Of a stretch of DNA of 49,718 nt, positions 6,280 to 49,718 are shown one piece after another. The first letter of the stretch is position 1, and each line of letters starts with the position of its first letter. Position numbers and translations under genes: made by a program. Origin of the DNA: a virus; IMG/VR virus record IMGVR_UViG_3300031749_000453, positions 1 to 49,718 of that record; one strand, 5' to 3'. Below the pieces are notes generated by a model, which worked only from the letters and a program-made list of their open reading frames with translations, had not been told where the DNA came from and made no database searches.

Positions 6280-6792
6280 CTACCCTTGCGCCAGGCCCGC
6301 CATGATCTTTTCCCTTGGCGACAGCATACTTAGGTCGGGCTGCAAGCGACCGGGGGCGCCGGGTGGGACGCGGTGGTCGGCGGTCTCCGCCGCAAGTTGA
6401 TGGCGCACCTTCGCCACCACCTCCTTGGCGATGGCCACGGCGCGGTCGAGTTCCTCGACGCTGTTGCCGACCACCAGCTCGGCCGGCAGGTCGGGCGAGG
6501 CCTGCAGCAGGGCTTGCCGATACTTCGGCACGGTGGCATTCAGCTTCTCTCGCAGGCCGTCGATTTCCGCCTGATACCGCCCCACGGCGGCTTCCAGTTC
6601 CCCGACGCGATGCCGCAGGCCACCTACGTCTGGCGGCTGGCCGGCAGCGGGTTGTTCTTCGGTGGCCTGCCCTGCGGCGTCCTGCGACGCCGCGTCCGCC
6701 GTGCTCTGCGCGTGAGTGGGGTCGAGAGGGCCTCCGGCGTCGGCCAGGGGCGCCTCCGGCGTGATGTTCGCCTCTTGTTGGACAGTGTCCAT
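6280..6792 (-). CDS. Capsid scaffold-like protein (element B)
   Basis: This 170-residue protein lies directly between portal and capsid, the usual place for the scaffold. The first 60 residues are Ala/Glu/Gln/Pro-rich and probably disordered. They are followed by a heptad-like coiled coil (RHRVGELEAAVGRYQAEIDG) and a helical tail ending SPREKIMAGLAQG. The ATG at 6792 has a perfect ribosome binding site (AAAGGAGGAACG). A scaffold would guide shell assembly and then leave or be degraded. Confidence 0.75.
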   Translation of the reverse strand: MDTVQQEANITPEAPLADAGGPLDPTHAQSTADAASQDAAGQATEEQPAAGQPPDVGGLRHRVGELEAAVGRYQAEIDGLREKLNATVPKYRQALLQASPDLPAELVVGNSVEELDRAVAIAKEVVAKVRHQLAAETADHRVPPGAPGRLQPDLSMLSPREKIMAGLAQG

Positions 6793-6818
6793 CGTTCCTC
6801 CTTTCTGGAATGCAGACT

Positions 6819-7400
6819 TCAGCCTTTCTTCCCCGAGTTGATCCCGCGAATCTTTTCTTCCTCCGCCGTCCATTCGGCGAAGGTCTGCTGGGGGTCGCGG
6901 ACGCCGAGGCTATCGGCGGCCAGGCGGCGGGAGTGGATGCCGGCGTTGACCAGCCTGACCTCGTCGATGATGGCGCGCGATTGGTCGCTGGGCAGCACAG
7001 GGCCCCAGACCGGTCGCGAGGACGGCGCCGCTAGGCGCAGCTTGGTGAACTGCTCCATCAGCCGGAAGACCATCTCGTTGCGCTGTCGGAAGACGGCGCT
7101 CCGGATCAGCCGCTTGCGGCGGACCTTCTGCAGCAGCGGGTGGAGCTCCATCTCCAAGGCCACCCCCGAAAGGGCCTTCTGGTTATCGCCGAACGCTGTG
7201 CGGGGCGTTTCGGCGAGGTCGTGCAAGGTGCGATAGAGCAGGTTGATGTAGTCGACGTGCAGCTCCACCCCACCGCCAGAGAGCAGGTCCAGCAGGTAGG
7301 CCTTGGCGTTTTCTGGCAGGGTCCAGACCGACCCCGGGGCGACGGCGATGTCCTCGGCCTCTTGTACATTCTCCAGCACGGCCACCGGATGGCCCGAGAG
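6819..7400 (-). pseudogene. Portal protein, C-terminal half (split by insertion of element A)
   Basis: These 193 residues are the C-terminal half of an SPP1 gp6-like portal. In frame from the core the protein reads LSGHPVAVLENV, then EDIAVAPGSVWTLPENAKA, a wing-to-stem segment typical of that family, and ends in a helical region. The N-terminal half lies at 45124-45879. Joining the two at the CTCG core gives LILE-LSGHPVAV with no frame shift, about 445 residues in total. A stop codon lies just upstream, inside phage A DNA. Any product here would have to start at an internal GTG (7385) and would lack the clip and most of the portal fold. The head operon of B is therefore inactive unless A excises. 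Confidence 0.9.
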
Positions 7401-7430
7401 CTCGCCCTTTACAGATCAATCCGTAACGCT
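7381..7430. other. attL: left junction of prophage A (core CTCG 7401-7404)
   Basis: Portal coding DNA of element B ends and phage A DNA begins at a 4-bp CTCG shared with the right junction (45124-45127). The phage-side half-site is TACAGATCAATCCG (7410-7423). Its reverse complement matches 12 of 14 positions of the phage-side half-site at the right end (45105-45118). The symmetry centre falls between T and C of CTCG, as expected for a serine-integrase crossover dinucleotide. The short core also fits a serine rather than a tyrosine integrase. Confidence 0.85.
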
Positions 7431-7440
7431 AGAGCAGAAG

Positions 7441-7731
7441 ATGCAGTTTCTGGGGACCAGTCAGCTAGCCGAGAAGCTCGGCGTCAGCCGCAGCCGGATC
7501 AGCCGCATGGCACAGGCAGGCGAGATCCCTTCACTGCGGGGTGGCTCGCACTACTACGTCCCCGTGGATGCCGAGCTCCCCAAACGCCACTGCCAATCCT
7601 GCGGCACGGAGCTCGTCAAACCGGCCAACCGCCAGTATTGGTGCGCGGCATGCAGTCGGGAGAAATGTCGGGAGCGGCGCCGCAACTGGTGGCGAGAGAA
7701 GCACGGCAAGGGAGCAGTCCGCGCGAAATGA
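7441..7731 (+). CDS. Excisionase-like HTH plus zinc-ribbon protein at the left end of phage A
   Basis: This 96-residue protein has a MerR/excisionase-type winged helix-turn-helix (FLGTSQLAEKLGVSRSRISR, then a GEIPSLRGGSHYYVP wing, residues about 3-45). A C-terminal CQSCG...CAAC zinc ribbon and a basic tail (RERRRNWWREKHGKG) follow. It should bind DNA and could be the recombination directionality factor. Only 36 bp of phage DNA lies between the att core and its ATG, too little for a normal promoter, and its ribosome binding site is weak. In the excised circle its frame is continuous with the integrase gene with no stop between, so it may be made as an integrase fusion or by coupling. It converges with the lysin gene. 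Confidence 0.7.
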   Translation: MQFLGTSQLAEKLGVSRSRISRMAQAGEIPSLRGGSHYYVPVDAELPKRHCQSCGTELVKPANRQYWCAACSREKCRERRRNWWREKHGKGAVRAK

Positions 7732-7791
7732 AGCGTCGGCGAACGCTGGCTCCGGTTCGGCCGGCTAGCCCAAGGAGGAAAGAGAGGATAG

Positions 7792-7887
7792 ATGAACATC
7801 AACGTGGGGGTGGGAGCCTCACCTCGATATCCAGCGACTCCTTTAATTGCTCGGCCCGCCGTTAACAGATCGGGTCGATTTCGTTAA
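7792..7887 (+). CDS. Possible 31-residue peptide
   Basis: An ATG at 7792 lies behind AAGGAGG and a closer GAGG. It opens a 31-codon frame beginning NINVGVGASPRYPATP. It follows the HTH gene by 60 bp on the same strand. The peptide has no recognisable domain and may be chance. The ribosome-binding-like sequence is the only positive sign. Confidence 0.2.
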   Translation: MNINVGVGASPRYPATPLIARPAVNRSGRFR

Positions 7888-9871: not shown

Positions 9872-9931
9872 TTATTTCGTGAGCAAGTAGACTACCATCG
9901 CCCCGACGATCACCACGATCTCACTCACCAC
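9872..9931 (-). CDS. Possible 19-residue transmembrane peptide
   Basis: A GTG at 9931 with GAGGA eight bases upstream opens a very short frame whose product is almost wholly hydrophobic (SEIVVIVGAMVVYLLTK). It lies just before the lysin cassette. Tiny membrane peptides occur in phage lysis cassettes, but at this length the call is weak. Confidence 0.3.
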   Translation of the reverse strand: MVSEIVVIVGAMVVYLLTK

Positions 9932-9962
9932 GTTTCAATTCCTCATAGGTAGGCTCGGGACC
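9931..9962. repeat. 32-bp exact repeat, inverted copy of 43532-43563
   Basis: This segment is the exact reverse complement of 43532-43563 over 32 bp. Both copies read GPEPTYEELKR in one frame of their own strand. The other copy codes the C-terminus of the ImmA-like protein. Here the frame ends after KRGE and has no evident start, so it looks like a duplicated gene fragment. Confidence 0.85.
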
Positions 9963-34979: not shown

Positions 34980-35036
34980 CTTAGTTCCTCCTATACCTAG
35001 CCTTCACAAGTCGAAGGTGGATCGTCATCTGTTCTC

Positions 35037-35166
35037 CCCGAGTATGTGCAACGACATTAAAAGAGTTTCCGCTACCCGAGTATGTAAAACGACACTAAAA
35101 GAGTTTCCGCTACCCGAGTATGTAAAACGACATTAATAATTACTATATATGTCGTTTTACATACTC
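35037..35166. repeat. Iteron-like repeat cluster with AT-rich centre (candidate replication origin)
   Basis: A 38-bp unit (CCCGAGTATGTAAAACGACA, then TTAAAAGAGTTTCCGCTA with small changes) occurs at 35037-35074 and 35075-35112. A third copy, shortened to its first 24 bp, starts at 35113. An inverted copy of GAGTATGTAAAACGACAT lies at 35149-35166. Copy three and the inverted copy make an 18-bp perfect inverted repeat around 15 AT-only-but-one bases (35134-35148). The helicase stop codon lies inside the inverted copy. Direct and inverted iterons beside an AT-rich stretch, next to helicase and primase genes, suit an origin or a multi-site operator. Confidence 0.7.
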
Positions 35167-42994: not shown

Positions 42995-43585
42995 TTGGAT
43001 GAAACCGTCGCCGCGATGGGAGACCTCGAACGTTTGGAGCGCATCATCGACCATCTGTTAAACGGAGCTGGCATCATCAGTCCACCGGTGCCAATCAACA
43101 TCGTGGCCCTTATTGATCCCAGTATGCCAGTCCGCATCGTTGAACGGCAGCTCCAGGTGTACAGGGCAGCGCTTAAGCCTAGCGCTGGCCGTTGGTTGAT
43201 CATCGTCAATCAAAGCCTGCCGCGGGCAGCCCAGCGCTTTAGCATTGCCCACGAAGCCTTTCATATCCTGCAACGCAACGGGTTCGCTACCTCCAAGGAT
43301 CATGTCTCGCCATACGTCGAATGGCTGGCCAACCAGTTCGCCGCCCGGGTGCTGATGCCCCGCCGCTGGGTGGTGGAGTTGGCGCCAAAGGCTCGCAACG
43401 CCCGTCACCTCGCCGGTATCTTCTACGTGTCCGAGAAGGCGATGAGTCGTCGGCTAGGGGAGCTCAACTTGAAGTTTGGGGGGCGACACGATGTTGATCA
43501 ACAGCCAACGTCTGCGAGAGTCGCACCAGAGGGTCCCGAGCCTACCTATGAGGAATTGAAACGAGAACGGTCGCCGGCCTGGTGA
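42995..43585 (+). CDS. ImmA/IrrE-type metalloprotease
   Basis: This 196-residue protein has the zinc site IAHEAFHILQR (H86-E-x-x-H90) and a downstream VEWLANQFAARVLMPRRWV helix, whose Glu/Asn-Gln-Phe-Ala region is typical of the family. ImmA proteins cleave the phage or ICE repressor on a host signal. It shares an operon with the integrase. I chose the TTG at 42995, which has AAGGGGAGG nine bases upstream. A longer frame to 42797 overlaps the promoter. The C-terminus ends in GPEPTYEELKRERSPAW, part of which is duplicated at 9931-9962. Confidence 0.85.
   Translation: MDETVAAMGDLERLERIIDHLLNGAGIISPPVPINIVALIDPSMPVRIVERQLQVYRAALKPSAGRWLIIVNQSLPRAAQRFSIAHEAFHILQRNGFATSKDHVSPYVEWLANQFAARVLMPRRWVVELAPKARNARHLAGIFYVSEKAMSRRLGELNLKFGGRHDVDQQPTSARVAPEGPEPTYEELKRERSPAW
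43532..43563. repeat. 32-bp exact repeat, inverted copy of 9931-9962
   Basis: This copy codes for GPEPTYEELKR near the C-terminus of the ImmA-like protein. In the circular phage the two inverted copies would flank a segment of about 4.1 kb carrying integrase, attP, the HTH gene and the lysin. Confidence 0.85.
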
Positions 43586-43636: not shown

Positions 43637-45238
43637 ATGACCACTGAGCGCGTGGCGGTCTACGTAAGGGTCTCCAGTGAAGACCAGAAGGAAGCGGGAA
43701 CCATTGAGAACCAGATCGACTTCGCCCGCCGCTACTGCGACCTGCACGACTTACCCGTCCACCAGGTCTATGCCGATGATGGGGTCAGCGGCACGGTGGC
43801 CGTGAGTGAGAGACCGGGCGGCCGGCGGCTGCTCAGCGATGCCAAGGCGGGGAAGTTTCAAGTCGTCCTGGTTCTGAAGATCGACCGGCTGGCCCGCTCT
43901 CTCTGGCACCTGCTGAACGTCTACAACGAGCTGTCCGAATGCGACGTCGGCATTTGCTCCATGACCGAGCCCCTCGATACCAGCTCGCCGATCGGGCGGT
44001 TCGTCTTCCAGCTCCTAGGCAGCATCGCCGAGCTGGAGAGAGCGACCATCATGGAACGGACCGCCTTGGGGCGGCTAAGGGCAGCCAGGTCCGGACGTTG
44101 GGCCGGCGGTCAGCCTCCGTTCGGCTACCGGCTCGAAGACAAGCGCCTCGTGGTAGATGACGCCGAAGCCGCCGTCGTCCGGCGCATCTTCCACCTCTGC
44201 GTCGACGAGGATATGGGGATCATCCCCATTGCCGAGCTCTTCAACGCCGAGGGTGTGCCAACGGTCTTTACCCACCGGGGGGTCAAGACGAGCCGCTGGC
44301 CAACCCAGGAGCACCGCTGGGACAACAGCGTGATCTCTCGCATGCTGGGCAATCCGATCTATACCGGAAGGTATGTCCTCGGCAAGAGCAGAGGTAAGGC
44401 CCTCGTCGAATGCGAAGCGCCAGCGATCGTCGACGCCGCGACCTTCGACGCCGCGCGCCGGCTGCTCAAAGAGCGCACCACCGAGGCCTCCCGCAATGCC
44501 CGGCGCCTCTACCTCCTACGCGGCCTAGTGAAGTGCCACTGTGGCCGGGCGATCGTGGGCAACGGCAACCACAAGCGCCATGCCTTCGAGTACGTCTGTC
44601 CGACGTGGAAGCACTTTCGCCTGCGGGCCGAGGTTCTCGAAGGGGCGGTCTGGGCCCATCTCGACGCGTGGGGCCGCAACCCCGGCCCGGCGATCGCCGA
44701 GCTGCATGAGCGACTTCGCGCCGAGGCGAAGGAACACATCGACGTTTCGCAGGAACTCGCGGACCTATCCGAGCAGATCGCCGCCAAGAAGGCCGAGCAG
44801 GACACCGTGATCACCCTCTTCCGCAAGGCGCGAATCACTGAGGCGCAGCTCGACAATCAGCTTGATGCACTCAACGTGGAACTCCGAGCCTTGGAGGCGC
44901 ACCAGAAGAGCCTGCTCGAGCGACAGGCCATCGCGCAGATGCAGGAGACGGCTCTCATCTCGGCAGAGGCGATCCTGATGCGGCTAGGGGAACGGTTAGA
45001 CGAGGCGCGAGACAGCCCTGAGCTGCAACGAGAGCTGATCAAGTGCCTCATCGCCAGCATGACGGTAGACCAAGACGGTTCTATCCACATCCGGTTTCGC
45101 TTCGCGGATTCCTCTGTAGAAACCTCGAGAATCAGGGAAAGGGTCGACAGCGCCCGGTTCAGCTCGCGTGCGGGCTCGAGGATCGGCGCCAGGTCGGAGA
45201 CGCCCCAGAACTGCTTGGGCTCCCGCAGGTTGGGGTAG
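43637..45238 (+). CDS. Large serine integrase, 3' end exchanged by integration
   Basis: This 533-residue enzyme has an N-terminal catalytic domain (AVYVRVSSEDQKEAGTIENQ with the active serine near residue 13, LKIDRLARSL near 75-84). Next are the recombinase domain (GGQPPFGYRL onward), a zinc ribbon (GLVKCHCGRAIVGNG, YVCPTW) and a coiled coil (about 370-450). It performs attP x attB recombination. Phage DNA ends at codon 497 (45127). The last 36 codons are antisense portal sequence of element B. In the excised circle codon 497 would be followed by the frame of the HTH gene at 7405-7731, giving 605 residues. ATG at 43637, GGGGGTGG seven bases upstream. Confidence 0.9.
   Translation: MTTERVAVYVRVSSEDQKEAGTIENQIDFARRYCDLHDLPVHQVYADDGVSGTVAVSERPGGRRLLSDAKAGKFQVVLVLKIDRLARSLWHLLNVYNELSECDVGICSMTEPLDTSSPIGRFVFQLLGSIAELERATIMERTALGRLRAARSGRWAGGQPPFGYRLEDKRLVVDDAEAAVVRRIFHLCVDEDMGIIPIAELFNAEGVPTVFTHRGVKTSRWPTQEHRWDNSVISRMLGNPIYTGRYVLGKSRGKALVECEAPAIVDAATFDAARRLLKERTTEASRNARRLYLLRGLVKCHCGRAIVGNGNHKRHAFEYVCPTWKHFRLRAEVLEGAVWAHLDAWGRNPGPAIAELHERLRAEAKEHIDVSQELADLSEQIAAKKAEQDTVITLFRKARITEAQLDNQLDALNVELRALEAHQKSLLERQAIAQMQETALISAEAILMRLGERLDEARDSPELQRELIKCLIASMTVDQDGSIHIRFRFADSSVETSRIRERVDSARFSSRAGSRIGARSETPQNCLGSRRLG
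45100..45150. other. attR: right junction of prophage A (core CTCG 45124-45127)
   Basis: Phage DNA ends and portal DNA resumes at CTCG. The phage-side half-site is CGGATTCCTCTGTA (45105-45118). With the half-site at 7410-7423 it rebuilds attP as an imperfect palindrome centred on the core. Integrase coding continues straight across the junction. Confidence 0.85.
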
Positions 45239-45879
45239 ACGACGAACGGGATGAAGCCGTAGGGATTGCGCCGCTGCCAGATCAGGTCGGGGCCGGCCCA
45301 TAGCTCGAACCGCTGCGCCGTCCAGCCCTCGGTGATCGTCACGTTGTCGGCCGTCGTTCGGTAGCGGTAGAGGCGTAGCGCCTCGTCCCTGTCCACCTGG
45401 TACCGCGAGGCCAGTTTCACCATCCGGCCGATGTCGTCACCGGCCCACCAGACGAAGATGCCCTGCATATCCGGCGCGGTAATGCGCACGCGCTTCTCCT
45501 CGGTATCCCAGATCACCTTGTAGCAGCCGTCCCCCAGCACCGCAGTGTCGATCTCGTTATCCAGGTCTAGTTGCGCCAGATTGTTTGCCTCGGCCACCTC
45601 GTAGAGGATGGCTTCGGCCTGTTGAGCGTCGGCACGTTCTAACGTTTGAACGTTGGAACGTTCTAACGGCACATCGACCGCCCAATTAACATCGGCCATC
45701 ACGTAGGAAGTCACCTTGTCGATCATGATCTTGGCGTAGTTGAAGGTGATCCGGCGCTCCCGCCGGCCCTGCCGCCCCGTCCACTGCGCACCTTTGTAGA
45801 AGTCCAGGTACTCGCGATAGCGCCGGAGCCGCCCGATATCCCGGTTTGCCACCTCTTCCGGCAACGTCTTGGCGTTCAA
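45124..45879 (-). pseudogene. Portal protein, N-terminal half (split by element A)
   Basis: These 252 codons are the N-terminal part of an SPP1 gp6-like portal: RYREYLDFYKGAQWTGRQGR, KIMIDKVTSYVMADVNWAVD, ILYEVAEANNLAQLDLDNEI, RRNPYGFIPFVVYPNLREPK and the last native residues LSTLSLILE. After that the frame reads about 85 nonsense codons antisense to the integrase. The TTG start at 45879 has a strong AAGGAGGG ribosome binding site. The C-terminal half is at 6819-7400. An expressed truncated portal could poison assembly of other phages, but this is speculation. Confidence 0.9.
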
Positions 45880-47375: not shown

Positions 47376-47475
47376 TCTCCCTCTCCCTGCCAAAGAGAGG
47401 GCCGGGGTGAGGGTCGAAAGACTGCTGTGACCGACCTACCCTCACCCTAACCCTCTCCCCTCCTGGGGAGAGGGG
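47376..47475. repeat. Inverted GC-rich interspersed repeat
   Basis: CCGGGGTGAGGGT (about 47403-47415) and its inverted relative ACCCTCACCCTAACCCTCTC (about 47438-47457) surround a short spacer, followed by CCCCTCCTGGGGAGAGGGG. It belongs to the class at 1751-1822 and 49603-49718. It separates the terminase gene from the small membrane-protein gene. Confidence 0.7.
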
Positions 47476-49293: not shown

Positions 49294-49717
49294 CGCTGCT
49301 TCCTCCTCTGTTTGTCTTGACCCCCTCTCGCTCCATCTTGCGGGCGACGGTCAAGATCGACTGGATGTCCGACACGCCCTTGAGGGCCGCCCAGTCGATC
49401 GCCGCCAAGATGTGGGGGAGCCCAATTTGGTTCTCGCCCCGGGCCAAGGCCTCGGCCTGCGCCGCCGTCTGGAAGTGATGCTTGCCGAAAGCTTTCAGGT
49501 AAGCGGCCTGCGCCGGCGAGCGCGCCTTCTTGTCCGAAGCCTTTGCCCGTTCTAACGTTTCAACCTTCGACCGTCTGGCCGAGGGGGAGGGCGCAGCCCC
49601 GGTCCTCTCCCCCTGGGAGAGGGCCGGGGTGACGGCCAACTCCCTCTCCCCCTCCGAGAGAACCGGGGTGACGGCCAACTCCCTCTCCCCCTCCGAGAGA
49701 ACCGGGGTGACGGCCAA
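49187..49717 (-). CDS. Possible replication protein, 5' end at window edge
   Basis: The frame stays open to the edge, so the gene may be partial. Residues about 70-140 (AQAAYLKAFGKHHFQTAAQA, IGLPHILAAIDWAALKGVSD, ILTVARKMEREGV) resemble the C-terminal helical region of phage replication initiators that precede DnaC-like genes. The first 40 residues repeat LAVTPVLSEGERE and are translated from the tandem repeat at 49603-49718, so the true start may lie after them. The long overlap with the DnaC-like gene is unusual. Confidence 0.4.
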   Translation of the reverse strand: MAVTPVLSEGERELAVTPVLSEGERELAVTPALSQGERTGAAPSPSARRSKVETLERAKASDKKARSPAQAAYLKAFGKHHFQTAAQAEALARGENQIGLPHILAAIDWAALKGVSDIQSILTVARKMEREGVKTNRGGSSDGRISQNGRGAGEDPGGTRSPTDGDGWLDPKYKDL

Positions 49718-49718
49718 C
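49603..49718. repeat. Three tandem 38-39-bp repeats at the window edge
   Basis: Units at 49603-49640, 49641-49679 and 49680-49718 share GAGA(G/A)(G/A)(G/A)CCGGGGTGACGGCCAAC. The last two are identical. They continue to the end of the window, so the array may be longer. They match the interspersed repeats at 1751-1822 and 47376-47475. Confidence 0.85.

Follow-up and report, generated by a model that had tools for sequence, protein, structure and literature searches.

A serine integrase reading frame that appears to run through its own attachment site into an HTH domain severed on integration

Integration can alter a gene of the integrating element itself. In the mycobacteriophage BPs and its relatives, attP lies within the repressor gene, and the C-terminal end that is lost carries a degradation tag (PMC4557955). 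The 'suicidal' integrases of SSV1, pTN3 and pT26-2 are tyrosine recombinases whose split parts are thought to be inactive, and self-disruption of this kind has been termed exclusively archaeal in a review (PMC8371274). In SPbeta, sprA and sprB are separate genes, the latter of which has its own promoters and encodes the directionality factor (PMC8270828). Fusions of an integrase to an RDF have been engineered in the laboratory from two phage genes, with the function of the RDF known, and the available text of the work describing them makes no mention of a natural fusion with attP in its linker (PMC5737554). A literature search whose scope excluded most subscription journals returned no description of a large serine integrase (LSR) open reading frame (ORF) that contains attP and an HTH domain; the LSR-attP-HTH architecture is likewise not mentioned in the available text of a large LSR survey (PMC10083194), nor is the related architecture of Paisley and Harrison, described below, in that of two reports on Paenibacillus larvae phages (PMC6070908, PMC11860570).

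Herein we analysed a virus record of 49,718 bases, the whole of which we refer to as the window, and found that it comprises two phages, one nested within the other, and a single copy of an integrase gene. Genes for the terminase, portal, capsid and a DnaC-like protein of the outer phage were identified with Pfam and PHROG close to both ends of the window. The inner phage extends from 7405 to approximately 45123 and encodes a terminase and portal of its own, as well as a head protease, neck, tape-measure and tail-fibre proteins and an endolysin, along with an M78 (ImmA-like) ORF and an LSR whose gene starts at 43637. It is inserted into the portal gene of the outer phage, to which the integrase gene (int) is antisense. 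The 3' part of this portal gene occupies 6819-7404 on the minus strand (phrog_64 and SPP1_portal matches) and the 5' part 45124-45879 on the same strand (phrog_64), both assignments being supported by the rejoined portal described below; a head gene of one phage is thus disrupted by a second, complete-looking phage.

Several repeats were also noted in the window. A CRISPR-repeat-like sequence of 32 nt is found in an intergenic position at 9931-9962 on the plus strand, with an inverted copy at 43532-43563 within the terminal part of the ImmA-like ORF, and its first 25 bases occur twice in the phage contig L031 (at 5293 and 5360), 67 bp apart, in a pair that resembles a phage-borne mini-array. 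At 35034-35166, 2.6 copies of a 38-bp tandem repeat precede an inverted copy whose arms are 23 nt long, and this region is a possible origin or regulatory site. The outer phage contains dispersed repeats of 37-39 nt of the CTCTCCCCC type at 49604-49718, 47382-47418 and 1753-1820, and those at the right end of the record form a tandem array.

The junctions of the inner phage were placed using the interrupted portal. Intact portals from four relatives read ELNRA-x-SQLS-x-ILELSGNPIAVLEN at the joint, and the portal of the window reads ELNRALSTLSLILE from the right side and ELSGHPVAVLEN from the left; this comparison places the joint within one GAG codon and gives CTCG as the core, present on the plus strand at 7401-7404 (attL) and 45124-45127 (attR). 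When rejoined at CTCG, the portal is 445 aa long with no internal stops, and it aligns near full length with four of five relatives at 51-55% identity with one to three gaps, none of them at the joint. The fifth relative, L047, is uninformative on the joint, at 22% identity with 14 gaps. Rejoining the inner ends of the phage yields the attP sequence CGGATT-2-TCTGTA-5-CTCG-5-TACAGA-2-AATCCG, whose arms, identified by mirror symmetry about the core, lie at 45105-45118 (left; CGGATT, 2 nt, TCTGTA) and 7410-7423 (right; TACAGA, 2 nt, AATCCG), both given on the plus strand. Symmetry about CTCG extends to 16 of 25 positions, compared to a mean of 6.5, and is as high at 0.02% of window positions; attB is symmetric at 7 of 25 positions and differs from attP outside the shared 4-bp core, as is typical of LSR sites. 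Two other cores suggested by base identity and inspection by eye, ACAG and GA, were rejected on the grounds that the portal sequence, restored by CTCG, is broken or made worse by them. Because the portal frame is restored and attP is symmetric about the core, we take the inner phage to represent a true LSR integration. The junctions could instead be an assembly artefact, or reflect no real integration, a reading to which the single virus record and its single integrase copy would lend themselves; set against the restored portal, the symmetry of attP and the presence of an LSR gene at one end of the insertion, it is highly improbable.

The phage-encoded part of the integrase, including the core, spans 43637-45127 on the plus strand and was delimited using Pfam, PHROG and an alignment of relatives. 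Its Resolvase (124.9 bits), Recombinase (55 bits) and zinc ribbon (Zn_ribbon_recom; 25.4 bits) domains occur in the order characteristic of LSRs, with the zinc ribbon barely over its cut-off of 25.3 here and barely under it, at 23.9, in the rejoined protein. In the prophage, this frame continues into antisense portal DNA for 36 codons and a stop (45128-45238, plus strand), as judged from the ORF list and the portal rejoining. The prophage form of the integrase thus retains all three LSR domains by Pfam, and the portal-derived tail stands where the circle has a tail with an HTH domain. This last arrangement became apparent from the in silico circle, where the int frame runs through the core into the HTH frame without a stop, reading ...FADSSVETSPFTDQSVTLEQKMQFLGTSQLAEKLGV... 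across the core, to form a single 605-codon ORF that encodes Resolvase, Recombinase, zinc ribbon and HTH_17 domains.

The continuity of these two frames was overlooked in a preliminary description of this DNA, which had presented the HTH frame as a separate excisionase-like gene left without a promoter by integration. The junction anatomy bears out much of that account: integration parts the HTH frame from int and places it behind antisense portal DNA, its use should depend on the state of integration, and the position is an atypical one for an excisionase. The claim of a separate gene is the part that most likely does not hold, the HTH frame being better read as the 3' end of the int ORF. For the window considered by itself, the probability of an open shared frame arising by chance is about 0.24, because 12-codon stretches drawn at random from the inner phage are free of stops in about 70% of cases. 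The open frame alone is therefore weak evidence, and it is the relatives described below that carry the case for a fusion. As judged from the rejoined frame, attP lies inside the gene of the integrase that acts on it, as in suicidal integrases, and the ORF that contains it is that of the predicted integrase-HTH protein rather than a repressor gene as in BPs. By in silico rejoining, the circle of the window fits a class that we define here as LSR-attP-HTH split integrases, in which an LSR has an in-frame HTH tail past an internal attP; L100, a relative described below, fits this class as well.

The predicted severed C-terminal tail comprises 108 codons and a stop at 7405-7731 on the plus strand, as delimited by the in silico rejoining and by the homologous fused tail of L100. 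The HTH domain is real: residues 512-552 of the rejoined protein (7447-7569, plus strand) match Pfam HTH_17 at E=1.5e-8, over the curated cut-off. A CxxC...CxxC motif at 7591-7653 on the same strand is zinc-ribbon-like by eye, in a stretch where Pfam gives no match. Searches with the HTH part gave weak matches: a single locus in viral contigs, L003, that is an XRE repressor by eye, and 11 phage records, the best at E=0.1. A sequence search of the PDB returned nothing under E=0.19. A predicted structure of the tail was discarded for its mean pLDDT of 54.7. The label 'excisionase-like' derives from the generic HTH_17 fold; of the 412 positions of the profile phrog_66 (excisionase and transcriptional regulator), 42 are matched, at E=5.6e-5.

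The gene start proposed previously, an ATG at 7441-7443 (plus strand), lies 36 bp from the core, as had been stated, and would be superfluous in a fusion. Its ribosome binding site, described as weak, indeed scores only -2.2 kcal/mol, a value that 62% of random sites attain, as do 17 of the 18 inner-phage starts hand-picked from the ORF list; the site of int scores -9.7 kcal/mol. This poor site fits a reading in which the HTH frame has no start of its own. A TTG at 7303, located in the antisense portal DNA in the same frame as the HTH domain, has a better site (-6.5), and the HTH frame could be translated from it in the prophage. No sigma-70-like sites were detected in 6800-7800, where shuffling predicts 0.0, and the scan is therefore uninformative. 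We considered whether ATG 7441 opens the gene of a separate small regulator that shares its frame with int by accident, is expressed in the circle by transcription from int, and is silent in the prophage. The HTH domain begins directly after this ATG, the chance probability given above leaves room for an accident of frame, and in one LSR locus, L091, an unfused XRE-like ORF (by eye) is located approximately 80 bp past the LSR stop. Weighed against a ribosome site no better than random, a homologous tail encoded within one ORF in L100, and a second lineage in which the fusion persists across LSRs that are 49-82% identical, a separate regulator is improbable.

The first of these relatives, L100, encodes an LSR with 38-41% identity to that of the window and an HTH tail in one ORF. 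Its tail is homologous to that of the window (alignment score 61; mean 22.8 and maximum 40 in 500 shuffles), with no Pfam HTH match at E<=0.001. A palindrome symmetric at 16 of 30 positions lies inside the ORF between the LSR and HTH parts; it was placed by scanning, in which position 6432 ranked higher. L100 is the sole relative of the HTH_17 type that we found. When TerL relatives were used to seek close phages, one of 26 records, L032, contained an LSR (PF07508), and of the eight records with an HTH_17 match, two loci were inspected by eye, where an integrase was not seen. In L032 (299-1813, minus strand), the C-terminus of the LSR is read from an antisense-tRNA-like stretch (by eye), another instance of an integrase tail derived from the target.

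The second lineage is defined by fused LSR-XRE ORFs near 690 aa, which are found in Paenibacillus phage Paisley, a group of contigs exemplified by L056, and two further cases, L077 and L105. The Paisley ORF is 695 aa and has an inverted repeat with 20-nt arms between its LSR and HTH domains, whose symmetry is equalled at 2 of 7,434 positions of the locus; the tail of Harrison is identical to that of Paisley. Two prophage contigs, L048 and L049, match the Paisley LSR at 100% until residue 542 and then diverge, at a point about 4 bp from the centre of the repeat, and show the LSR end only. Paisley is thus like the window in that one ORF encodes both an LSR and an HTH domain and is severed in prophages at an inverted repeat lying within it, and unlike it in that the tail consists of two XRE-type HTH domains rather than HTH_17 and a CxxC pair. 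Within the L056 group, L056, L058, L059 and L060 encode fused ORFs of 685 codons, and three other contigs (L061, L062 and L065) align with the group as far as the core, beyond which they differ or end.

The tail is not present in every LSR. Our survey of 60 loci comprised L002, of which L050 is a duplicate, and 59 of 80 matches, the 21 short or broken ones being excluded; 28 of these loci run to the contig end, where a tail could not be revealed, and among them L053 seemingly begins one before it is cut. An HTH tail was called by eye in 7 of the 32 LSR ORFs with sequence past the stop, four of which form one close group, and Pfam was used for L056, L058, L059, L060, L077 and L105. In a second set of 80 loci, 21 were viewed, namely L099 and 20 that were new; one of them, L160, has an HTH_3 tail that is truncated where the contig ends. 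Three LSR ORFs (L064 at 6605, L089 at 4372 and L091 at 6581) contain a palindrome that is probably attP, followed 25-35 codons on by a stop, with no HTH domain. Symmetry scans over ORF ends often chose terminators or chance palindromes, and the symmetry of attP sites with a CA core is weak in L056, L060 and the genome G205, being matched by 5%, 2% and 2% of background positions, respectively; in the genome G174 the figure is 0.6%. When the tails were compared to the other ORFs of their own loci, XRE-type ORFs proved weakly similar in L056, L105 and Paisley, and also in L059, for which the L056 tail was the query; no similarity was seen in L077 or L100; as these similarities are weak or absent, we make no claim that the tail copies a phage repressor.

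To the chromosomal prophages of this lineage we turned with the tail of L056 as query. A search of 398 genomes, all from one phylum, gave 24 with a match at E<=1e-12, of which six reached E<1e-44; in these six the tail lies in frames of 162-267 aa and is therefore not fused to an LSR there. The LSR, sought in eight tail-matching genomes, was found in seven at E<=1e-40, with none in G159; in G239 the LSR was found only at 41% and on a different contig. The five prophages analysed were those of G205, G329, G255, G413 and G174, with G352 outside the set. In the first four, the severed LSR and the tail are on one contig and the same strand, spanning approximately 40, 71, 50 and 78 kb, respectively; in G174 they are on separate contigs. 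The cores are CA in G205 and G174, TGCCCGTG in G329, CCCTGTCCGTGC in G255 and TGTCC in G413. Cores initially ranked by symmetry in G205, G255 and G174 were wrong, and we replaced them by aligning to L056 and taking the longest core that is shared. For G205 and G174, whose 2-bp cores were a manual choice, the empty site served as a check, and ComM is open through the joint there.

Rejoining the inner flanks gave an in-frame LSR-HTH ORF in all five prophages. When the outer flanks were rejoined at the same cores, each of the five yielded an open ComM frame, 466-542 codons long, in which the joint carries the motif NPCxCG, and the cores were therefore checked independently of the integrase frame. 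The comM gene and int share a strand in G329, G255 and G413 and are on opposite strands in G205 and G174. In G413 both prophage frames are open, such that a reciprocal in-frame exchange with ComM is predicted: one chimera (L230:411-2507) joins the LSR to the C-terminal half of ComM over 698 codons, and the other (L229:1-1638) joins the N-terminal half of ComM to the phage HTH tail over at least 545 codons, with domains confirmed by Pfam. The path through attP in G413 is in a frame unlike that of the other members by eye, and is open throughout.

We next asked how the tail evolves, using five fused sequences (three contigs and two rejoined prophages; 10 pairs). Ka/Ks for the LSR is 0.034-0.054 in 7 of the 10 pairs, the others being saturated, and for the HTH part 0.08-0.16 in 9, the remaining one being saturated; the 26-codon linker gives 0.23-0.50 in the four pairs that include G205 and 0-0.06 in the others. 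These ratios indicate that, in the XRE lineage, the tail is under purifying selection and is maintained as protein. They bear on whether the tail is passive baggage, the product of an adjoining gene that fell in frame with int and was tolerated. In favour of this, several LSRs of the clade are without a tail; a low Ka/Ks and the persistence of the fusion over deep divergence speak the other way, and we consider this quite doubtful.

Collectively, these data suggest, with a probability that we put at approximately 80%, that the 'stranded gene' is the C-terminal HTH domain of the integrase, whole in the circle and severed on integration. Among the points against a fusion are the chance probability of about 0.24 for the window, the possible start at TTG 7303, a single HTH_17-type relative, a tail that is not universal among LSRs, the weak attP symmetry at CA cores and the higher linker Ka/Ks in the pairs with G205. 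The core, the symmetry of attP, the open frame, the fused and severed relatives and, in the XRE lineage, the selection on the tail are read directly from sequence, and we infer from them that the circle of the window really produces an Int-HTH fusion.

In the mechanism that we propose, attP would sit inside one long ORF for a serine integrase that has an HTH domain in its C-terminal part, and the enzyme would be made as Int-HTH from the circle. Integration would split the ORF at the core, leaving the prophage integrase with its catalytic and DNA-binding domains and a short tail from the target gene, and the HTH part some 38 kb away without the promoter and start codon of int; excision would rebuild the fusion. 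The infecting phage would make the fused form, which must then be able to integrate, and the lysogen the severed form. In the lysogens seen, the severed tail is found behind antisense portal DNA in the window, and G413 is the only one of the five prophages in which it is joined to ComM; because these share no common route of expression, the tail probably works in the circle.

Among the functions that the HTH domain might have, the one we lean towards, at slightly under even odds, is DNA binding confined to the stage before integration. The domain may tie the integrase to control sites of the phage, such as its own promoter or lysis/lysogeny operators, with integration turning this regulation off. 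That the domain aids synapsis or targeting during integration, or has no function, appears distinctly less likely. Slightly behind this, and unlikely overall, is the possibility that the tail is a fused RDF that favours attL x attR, weakens attP x attB and limits the re-integration of induced circles. This would be a functional sub-case of the Int-HTH explanation and agrees with the idea in the preliminary description of a factor that blocks re-integration. The weak PHROG match to an excisionase/regulator family is in keeping with it, as are the engineered Int-RDF fusions, which promote attL x attR and in most assays lower attP x attB (PMC5737554). However, an infecting phage would make the fusion and must integrate, the tail is missing from the severed state, which has to excise, and the tails fall into two HTH classes. 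Returning to the Int-HTH explanation as a whole, we give an even chance to the broader proposal that integration acts as a protein-domain switch between Int-HTH in the circle, Int with a target-gene tail in the lysogen and, in some hosts such as G413, ComM-HTH. The enzyme would thereby record its own success, with the form that can be encoded setting regulation before integration, or directionality.

Serine integrases are an enzyme class used in genome engineering, and an enzyme that occurs naturally with and without its HTH domain would make directionality directly testable. By inference, LSR proteins derived from prophages of such lineages would be cut forms with tails from the target, and the natural full-length enzyme would escape surveys that draw on integrated elements; the tail could also be used as a probe for the second end of a prophage. 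As judged from the described parts of the systems introduced above, the locus is like the integration-dependent immunity of BPs in that attP lies in a regulatory ORF, the C-terminus would be shortened, and the forms in lysogen and virus would differ; it is unlike BPs in that an integrase frame holds attP and what is lost is an HTH domain (PMC4557955). As in SPbeta, an integrase and a small factor are found at opposite ends of the prophage and flank attP in the circle, here probably as one fused ORF rather than two genes (PMC8270828), and as in the engineered Int-RDF proteins, a serine integrase would carry a small protein at its C-terminus (PMC5737554). With the archaeal suicidal integrases it shares a recombinase gene split by integration and restored by excision, whereas here the enzyme is a serine integrase that appears to keep its catalytic part and lose an accessory domain (PMC8371274). 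If this reading is true, serine integrases gain a self-editing switch with a logic comparable to that of BPs immunity and of the archaeal suicidal integrases.
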